Assembly (NCBI RefSeq): GCF_033473495.1
Contig: NC_088938.1
Span: forward strand, 2,852,001-2,916,000
Direction: 5' to 3'
DNA: 64,000 bases
Source: Cercospora beticola
Taxonomy: Eukaryota > Ascomycota > Dothideomycetes > Mycosphaerellales > Mycosphaerellaceae
Each line of letters starts with the position of its first letter. Position 1 is the stretch's first letter. The notes under the pieces are model-generated. The model had not been told where the DNA came from. It saw only the letters and a program-made list of their open reading frames with translations, and ran no database searches. Positions 21,904-22,965 of the stretch are shown here, piece after piece. A program made the position numbers and the translations under genes.

Positions 21904-22735
21904 TTCTCTCTACGATGCAATGTTCAAGAACTGGTGAAGTGAGTTGTCTGCTGATGTTGGTTATGTAGCAGAAGCTGGAAGTACTGAAAAGGTAATCCGG
22001 CAATGGACTATTACCGAAATAGGACTTGCAATGCAGGAGCGATGCTGCATCGTGAGAAACTATCGCGAGGCCGTGGAGCGGATCTAGAAGCTCTAGCTCA
22101 CACAATTCGCTGTCATGTTCGAGTTCAAGCGGGGTATGGAAGGTAAAGCGATGTTGAGTCTGATGGTAGTGCTTCAATATGCTCCTGCCTCATTTTTGCA
22201 TACAAGGAAAGTGCTGTGAAGACGGAGAAATTTGACCAGTCCAGAGTAGCATGGTAGACATTGTCTGAATGGTTGCCGTTGATTGAAATAGAGCACTTCA
22301 GTTGAATCGTTCGACGACATTGTTTGGAATGCGTGAAGCACCTTCTGCTTCGACTGGGCCCATTTTCGCACCCTGTGCCACGAGACGTGGCGCCGGAAAT
22401 CGTCTCGCGGCTAATTATAGGGTCGCTTTCAACGACGCGAACATGCTTGATACAGTCGGGTATGACCGCCTGATGATATGGAACGATCGTTGCAGGCTCT
22501 CAAGGTCGCATAGAGGCGTTGTAGAAGTCGTTGCTGCATGGTAGCAAAGGTTGTGGAGTAAAAGTGCCAAGTCTTCACTTGGCGCACGGACCACGCACAT
22601 CCAGAAATTTCCGATAAATCCCCACCCATTACCCAATCGAAGAGATTGCAATCTTTCCAGGCTAGTTTCGTGCTGTCTGAGCTCTGCTGAAGCATCATGT
22701 ACAACAGTTTCTGCTCTAACAACATCCAATCACAC
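21904..22735. other. Intergenic between SDR gene and tRNA-Leu
   Basis: About 830 nt. Contains the SDR promoter; no further gene seen. Confidence 0.5.
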
Positions 22736-22756
22736 GGTGAGATGGCCGAGCGGTCT

Positions 22757-22811
22757 GTGAGTATTCACCTCCAACTTCTTCACCTACAAACATTCGCTGA
22801 CAATCGCCAAG
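22757..22811 (+). other. GT-AG intron-like insertion in the D loop of tRNA-Leu
   Basis: 55 nt starting GTGAGT, with CTGAC at 22797-22801 and ending CCAAG. The size and signals match the mRNA introns of this window (48-61 nt; AAG acceptors also occur in the transporter and cupin genes). Removing it joins GCGGTCT to AAGGCGC and restores the D arm. Confidence 0.75.
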
Positions 22812-22881
22812 AAGGCGCTAGCTTAAGGAAATCATTCAGTTGGTTTCAATCCGCTAGTCCGAAAGGGCGTGGGTTCGAATC

Positions 22882-22932
22882 GTAAGCTCTACCAAAGAGG
22901 TCAATTCCAAAACCACGAACTAACAAGACTAG
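22882..22932 (+). other. GT-AG intron-like insertion in the T stem of tRNA-Leu
   Basis: 51 nt starting GTAAGC, with a perfect CTAAC at 22920-22924 and ending CTAG. Removing it joins TTCGAATC to CCACTCTCATC and restores both the T stem (GTGGG/CCCAC) and the acceptor stem. Confidence 0.78.
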
Positions 22933-22958
22933 CCACTCTCATCAACATTCAGATTGTC

Positions 22959-22965
22959 TTTTTTT
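22959..22965 (+). terminator. RNA polymerase III terminator
   Basis: Run of seven T residues 14 nt after the discriminator base of tRNA-Leu, as expected for a Pol III transcription unit. Confidence 0.75.

Follow-up and report, generated by a model that had tools for sequence, protein, structure and literature searches.

Can a tRNA gene carry introns of the kind that the spliceosome removes from mRNA? The question is raised by a tRNA-Leu(AAG) gene of Cercospora beticola, located at 22736-22944 of a 64,000-nt stretch of contig C4 (the window; positions without a contig name refer to it). Introns of tRNA genes are the textbook domain of the tRNA endonuclease, and mRNA-type introns in a small RNA gene are known from fungal U6 snRNA genes, such as that of S. 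pombe. A first-pass annotation, made from the letters of the window, read this gene as a tRNA interrupted by two spliceosomal-type introns and an ordinary anticodon intron. Our analysis confirms that observation, and the feature is wider than a single gene: no fewer than 31 tRNA genes share it, as does one U6 gene.

Removing exactly 22757-22811, 22829-22851, and 22882-22932, as was first proposed, leaves four exons of 21, 17, 30, and 12 nt (22736-22756, 22812-22828, 22852-22881, and 22933-22944), and the joined 80 nt are called as tRNA-Leu(aag) by ARAGORN, with all stems closed and a single G-U pair in the acceptor stem (Table 1). The two outer inserts had also been described as equal in size; at 55 and 51 nt they are only similar. 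The middle insert lies one base 3' of the anticodon, as canonical tRNA introns do, and is expected to be a substrate of the tRNA endonuclease; neither outer insert lies there. Both outer inserts start with GT and end with AG, and their positions are also occupied in a second copy of the gene on contig C3, in which the intron interiors have diverged. The AAG acceptor of intron 1 belongs to a rarer type (3/36 introns) and, being less usual, counts against a spliceosomal reading. The gene otherwise looks like a Pol III gene, with a complete A box, a B box that matches 8/9 consensus letters on unspliced DNA and 9/9 once spliced, and a T7 run downstream.

Table 1. Features of the interrupted tRNA-Leu(AAG) gene in the window.
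Feature	Position	Strand	Content and basis
CCAATCA, just upstream	22726..22732	+	within a 13-nt block common to the C3 copy
Exon 1	22736..22756	+	5' acceptor strand, D stem 5' side, start of D loop; cloverleaf; identical in the C3 copy
A box TGGCCGAGCGG, uninterrupted	22743..22753	+	7/7 consensus letters
Spliceosomal-type intron 1, 55 nt, D loop	22757..22811	+	GTGAGT..CTGAC..AAG; signals and spacing
Putative branch A of intron 1	22800	+	in CTGAC, 11 nt from intron end
Exon 2	22812..22828	+	D stem 3' side, anticodon stem 5' side, anticodon AAG, base 37; cloverleaf
Ordinary tRNA intron, 23 nt, after base 37	22829..22851	+	position; C3 copy has 21 nt there
Exon 3	22852..22881	+	anticodon stem 3' side, variable arm, T arm to base 61; cloverleaf
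B box GGTTCGAATC(G)	22872..22882	+	final letter from the intron donor
Spliceosomal-type intron 2, 51 nt, T stem, bases 61/62	22882..22932	+	GTAAGC..CTAAC..TAG; signals and spacing
Putative branch A of intron 2	22923	+	in CTAAC, 9 nt from intron end
Exon 4	22933..22944	+	end of T stem, 3' acceptor strand, discriminator A; cloverleaf
T7 run, putative Pol III terminator	22959..22965	+	14 nt 3' of the gene

The tRNA call depends on the removal of both outer inserts. ARAGORN makes no call on the unspliced gene and either no call or a wrong SeC call when one outer insert alone is removed; with both removed and the middle insert kept, it calls Leu and reads the anticodon as taa, because it shifts the anticodon intron by two bases. 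The raw 64-kb window yields no tRNA by ARAGORN (bacterial setting, no introns) and none by Rfam. Under strict signals the window contains 17 candidate introns on the forward strand and 12 on the reverse strand, a count that is not raised, since the reversed sequence yields 25. Five candidates lie around the site, and two of the six possible removal pairs restore a tRNA-Leu, namely 22882-22932 with either 22757-22811 or a variant 3 nt longer. We chose 22757-22811 because the second copy reads TAG/AAGGCGC there (a slash marks the splice junction here and below).

This second copy (C3:2482868-2483076) is identical to the window gene at 80/80 exon positions and carries inserts of 54, 21, and 54 nt at the same three places. 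The interiors of the outer introns agree in 14/33 and 10/32 aligned columns, and both introns of the C3 copy keep GTGAGT, CTAAC, and TAG; the two genes also share CATCCAATCACAC upstream and a T run downstream. The first-pass annotation had held that relatives with the same inserts and decayed splice signals would mark a pseudogene, and that its reading would also fall if no spliced RNA were seen and other, intact Leu(AAG) genes supplied the tRNA. The comparison made here, with a paralogue rather than a sister species, finds the signals intact, and the 80-nt spliced query recovers only the two interrupted loci from the 36-Mb genome, even at E<=10, with no intact Leu(AAG) gene. A diverged Leu(AAG) gene (L046), with a GTTAGT..CTAAC..CAG insert in the T loop, was found by its A box, bringing the other Leu(AAG) genes to two, both interrupted. 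Further diverged copies could be missed, because the spliced query overlooked L046.

Across the genome (36.07 Mb, 10 contigs), at least 31 tRNA genes carry 38 spliceosomal-type introns, and 37 nuclear tRNA or tRNA-like loci have no visible insert, giving 68 recognised loci in a list that is incomplete, so that 31 is a lower bound. Fragments (L149, L162, and L167), mitochondrial-type genes (L015, L023, and L026), and two loci of unclear type (L078 and L085) are omitted from both counts. The loci come from an RF00005 search (30 matches at E<=0.001 and 44 at E<=10, with 62 of 905 candidates scored), an A-box pattern (25 matches, 24 inspected), two queries of the genome with joined tRNA sequences (29 and 50 rows), and the B-box pattern GGTTCGANTCC, of whose 61 matches eight had been found previously and 53 were newly inspected. 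The latter is a poor census tool, since its control gave 58 matches. A pattern for the interrupted initiator gene had 0 matches in the genome-contig set and 0 in the viral-contig set.

The interrupted genes include Leu(AAG) (three), Leu(CAG), Leu(CAA), Leu(UAA), initiator Met (two), a Met-like pair, Thr(AGU) (three), Val(AAC) (three), Asp (three), Phe (two), Arg(CCU), Arg(ACG) (two), Arg(CCG), Ala(UGC), Ala(AGC), Ser(UGA), Lys(CUU), and Cys (two). Their inserts are located in either strand of the acceptor stem, the D arm, the variable region, the T stem, and the T loop; the Arg(CCG) gene L069, considered as His and reassigned by the ARAGORN call on its spliced form, has three. Every locus found for initiator Met (2/2), Phe (2/2), Thr(AGU) (3/3), and Cys (2/2) is interrupted, the Cys gene L117 having been rejected as an intact gene on account of an intron in its 5' acceptor stem. 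The joined tRNA queries found no intact initiator Met, Phe, or Cys gene; in the same incomplete list, Trp, Asn, Ile(AAU), and other isoacceptors were not identified. If this word-based search missed no intact copy, splicing of the initiator, Phe, and Cys tRNAs would be indispensable.

Several loci met in this survey are worth recording in their own right. The Met-like pair (L032 and L125) was dropped as elongator Met, for which we take L007 to be the better fit, and is excluded from the claim about sole sources; its anticodon-loop insert of ~47 nt, which by eye can fold into hairpins, is nearly identical in both genes, in contrast to the diverged spliceosomal introns, and the anticodon stem has a U-U mismatch. 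Seven tRNA-like loci (L020, L066, L094, L114, L119, L120, and L166), part of them clustered at C8:748686-749136, have inserts in the anticodon region, several of them long and G+C-rich, and ambiguous anticodons. Four further loci (L043, L044, L045, and L054), not recognised as tRNA, share a block like AACGATC..CTTGGCCGAGYGGTA..AAGTCG around the A box, with a short T run ~150 nt after it, and are possibly a Pol III-transcribed family. The three mitochondrial-type genes are clustered in a large contig (G000:C2:3502591-3503121), perhaps as a nuclear insertion of mitochondrial DNA. L006 (G000:C7:2750480+), an intact tRNA on a nuclear contig, is called Ile(GAU), an anticodon that is unusual in cytosolic eukaryotic Ile tRNA.

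When the inserts are removed, ARAGORN returns the assigned isotype for 24/30 genes, a different one for five (Leu(CAA), one Thr, two Asp, and one Ala), and none for one. The Cys-2 gene receives no call with one of its two introns removed and is called Ala with both removed; the case for Leu(UAA) is weak, as ARAGORN says Leu with or without the insert. We set these discordant and weak calls against the best explanation. On unspliced genes, with anticodon introns allowed, one of 30 is given the right isotype, seven a wrong one, and 22 none, and standard tRNA finders would therefore overlook or misname such genes.

The inserts are uniform in their signals. All 38 run from GT to AG, with G at position 5 in 37, and measure 51-61 nt (median 54); CT[AG]A[CT], its A placed 9-14 nt before the end, is present in 32/38, as against 29/1728 background tiles, and the looser [CT]TNA[CT] in 38/38. 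These signals and sizes are in line with a single mRNA intron of this genome, the only one examined, which is a 48-nt GTAGGT..CTAAC..TAG intron in the LST8 gene of the window. The window also carries a CRM1 gene that is readable as a single ORF; it shares 97% identity with its counterpart in Cercospora berteroae, 94% and 92% with those of two Pseudocercospora species, and 90% with that of Dothistroma septosporum, which places the host among the mycosphaerellaceous fungi, and a PDB search with CRM1 was uninformative. Self-splicing introns were rejected because 51-61 nt is too short, known self-splicing introns being larger. The tRNA endonuclease might instead remove the inserts as non-canonical tRNA introns, in the manner of Cyanidioschyzon or nucleomorphs, in which tRNA genes with several introns outside the canonical site are known (PMC4090602); we regard this as extremely improbable, given the GT and AG ends, the branch-like motif, and the tight size distribution found throughout, and a crude bulge-helix-bulge score at the junctions of 36 inserts that is no better than random (mean 5.53 vs 5.73, of 10), none of the 36 reaching 9/10.

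Insert boundaries were picked to fit the cloverleaf and the signals, so these signal counts are not blind, and the paralogues serve as an independent check. Asp(GUC) L060 is continuous both at the D-arm insert site of L072 and at the T-stem insert site of L135 and L136. Insert-free genes likewise stand beside interrupted ones for Arg(ACG) (L027 vs two genes), Ala(AGC) (L022 and L159 vs L160), Lys (L018 vs L161, which has two inserts), and Val (L008 vs three genes, with a slightly different junction and equal spliced length), and the Met-like L032 and Cys L117 each lack one of the two inserts of L125 and L163, respectively. From L117, the 5' exon GCTC was predicted for L163 and then read as GCTC/GTAAGT, 54 nt from the acceptor. 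Among the Val(AAC) genes, L123 and L126 have the D-loop intron at one place and L121 ~3 bases further, with the same spliced sequence, which reflects either intron sliding or separate gains.

Base pairs that span an insert also covary: pair 7-66 of initiator Met changes from G-C to A-U, pair 5-68 of Arg(ACG) from C-G to U-A, and pair 5-68 of Cys from U-A to C-G, in a small sample of three pairs from three two-gene comparisons. Together with the insert-free paralogues, these pairs point to the spliced RNA as the form under selection. This bears on whether the interrupted genes are non-functional copies, their tRNAs being supplied by intact genes elsewhere, as the presence of insert-free paralogues for several isotypes might suggest, along with the 68 loci recognised here against published tRNA-finder predictions of 200 tRNAs for Cercospora sojina (PMC7032006) and 81 for Passalora sequoiae (PMC7640444). 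Such a loss of function is nonetheless highly improbable: the Leu(AAG) exons remain unchanged around diverged introns, the splice signals are intact in every insert, pairs covary across the junctions, and the searches turned up no uninterrupted gene for initiator Met, Phe, or Cys and no uninterrupted close copy of Leu(AAG). Judging from its sequence and its paralogues, the window gene is very likely functional, encoding tRNA-Leu(AAG) and interrupted by two U2-type spliceosomal introns as well as an ordinary tRNA intron, and one of at least 31 genes of this kind; among the readings considered, that of the first-pass annotation is the best supported, with splicing as its inferred step.

As to their origin, the inserts could be recent copies of an introner-like element that happened to strike tRNA genes, such elements having been described in Dothideomycetes (PMC4457414). 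Near-identical copies in large number were not found: a genome search at E<=0.01 with 36 of the introns returned their own loci only (34 rows), and a recent introner origin thus appears very unlikely. An old or diverged intron family may lie behind them, because the search was insensitive enough to miss the related Val-2 and Val-3 introns, which are identical at 25/31 interior positions.

How the interrupted genes are transcribed can be judged from the DNA around and within them. A T5+ run lies within 60 nt downstream of 24/30 genes, compared with 27/1066 tiles on one strand and 22/1066 on the other, and for two of the six genes lacking a run the sequence inspected stopped within 18 nt. A TATA-like motif is present within 60 nt upstream of 10/30 genes (7/1065 tiles), and CCAAT within 45 nt upstream of 10/30 (56 and 51 of 1420 tiles). 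On unspliced DNA, the A and B boxes are unchanged in 13/30 genes, lose one letter in nine, and lose two or more in eight, one of which has its A box beyond the stretch scored; we count these eight against the best explanation. In some cases the splice site itself supplies box letters, as in initiator Met (GCA/GTGAG) and Phe (CAG/TTCGATCC).

Small RNA genes of other families provide a comparison within the same genome. The U6 gene L156 (G000:C7:2731470+) has three spliceosomal-type introns of 49, 50, and 52 nt, which lie between blocks that read as U6, and a second, U6-like gene, L155 (G000:C2:3146896-), has none. Fungal SRP RNA (one locus) and U2 (four loci) gave full-length model matches with no inserts, so that among these four families inserts were seen in tRNA and U6 genes only. 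Spliceosomal splicing is usually coupled to Pol II, and A or B boxes are interrupted in some genes; it is conceivable, then, that Pol II makes a longer precursor from which introns are removed as in mRNA and the tRNA is trimmed out. That route is unlikely, as T runs follow the genes far above background, 22/30 genes lose at most one box letter, and one U6 gene of this genome, of a type transcribed by Pol III, carries three introns of this kind. Because of the T runs and the A and B boxes, Pol III transcription of the interrupted tRNA genes is most likely.

A pathway for the Leu(AAG) gene can be proposed on this basis. Pol III would read the gene as far as the T7 run, using its internal A and B boxes and perhaps elements upstream. 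The spliceosome would then take out the D-loop and T-stem introns, as we infer from the signals, the paralogues, and the covariation. Next the ends would be trimmed, and tRNA endonuclease and ligase would excise the anticodon intron. We propose this order since the T arm, which the end-processing enzymes and the tRNA endonuclease require intact, is interrupted by the T-stem intron. The exon-intron anatomy and its conservation between the two copies are read directly from the DNA; the RNA steps of this pathway are proposed.

Translation in this fungus probably depends on the spliceosome, with initiator Met, Phe, and Cys tRNAs made solely from genes with spliceosomal introns and some pre-tRNAs having to pass, in a set sequence, through two splicing machineries unrelated to each other. 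The proposed dependence is weakened by the incompleteness of the tRNA list and by the uninterrupted U6-like gene beside the interrupted one. If it is true, splicing capacity could set tRNA supply, and the spliceosome would become a tRNA maturation enzyme, given at least 31 genes that include every initiator, Phe, and Cys gene found. It would also open to study how the spliceosome acts on Pol III transcripts, how two splicing systems are ordered, and how introns enter Pol III genes, for which insert-free and insert-bearing paralogues within one genome are natural controls.

Several known systems resemble these genes in part. The canonical eukaryotic tRNA intron, after base 37, has its counterpart in the middle insert, from which the outer two differ. 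Fungal U6 introns are likewise GT-AG spliceosomal introns in a Pol III small RNA gene; unlike U6, the present case involves many tRNA genes with internal promoters, some of which have an ordinary tRNA intron as well. In Cyanidioschyzon merolae and nucleomorphs, several introns per tRNA gene are found in the D arm, the T arm, and elsewhere, removed by the tRNA endonuclease or an unknown route and only 3-24 nt long in Guillardia (PMC4090602); by contrast, the introns here have 51-61 nt, spliceosomal signals, and no bulge-helix-bulge signal. Section 5 of that paper covers canonical tRNA introns and the nucleomorph and Cyanidioschyzon exceptions, and the word stem "spliceosom" is absent from the whole paper. 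Among the matches listed, open-access titles and the openings of abstracts contained no precedent for spliceosomal introns in tRNA genes. The introner-like elements of Dothideomycetes (PMC4457414) are likewise spliceosomal introns gained in the same fungal class, and the word tRNA is absent from the text of that paper; unlike them, the tRNA introns show no detected common sequence. By its sequence features, the set described here would add a class of tRNA intron for which we found no precedent, and would place tRNA genes beside U6 as Pol III genes with spliceosomal introns.
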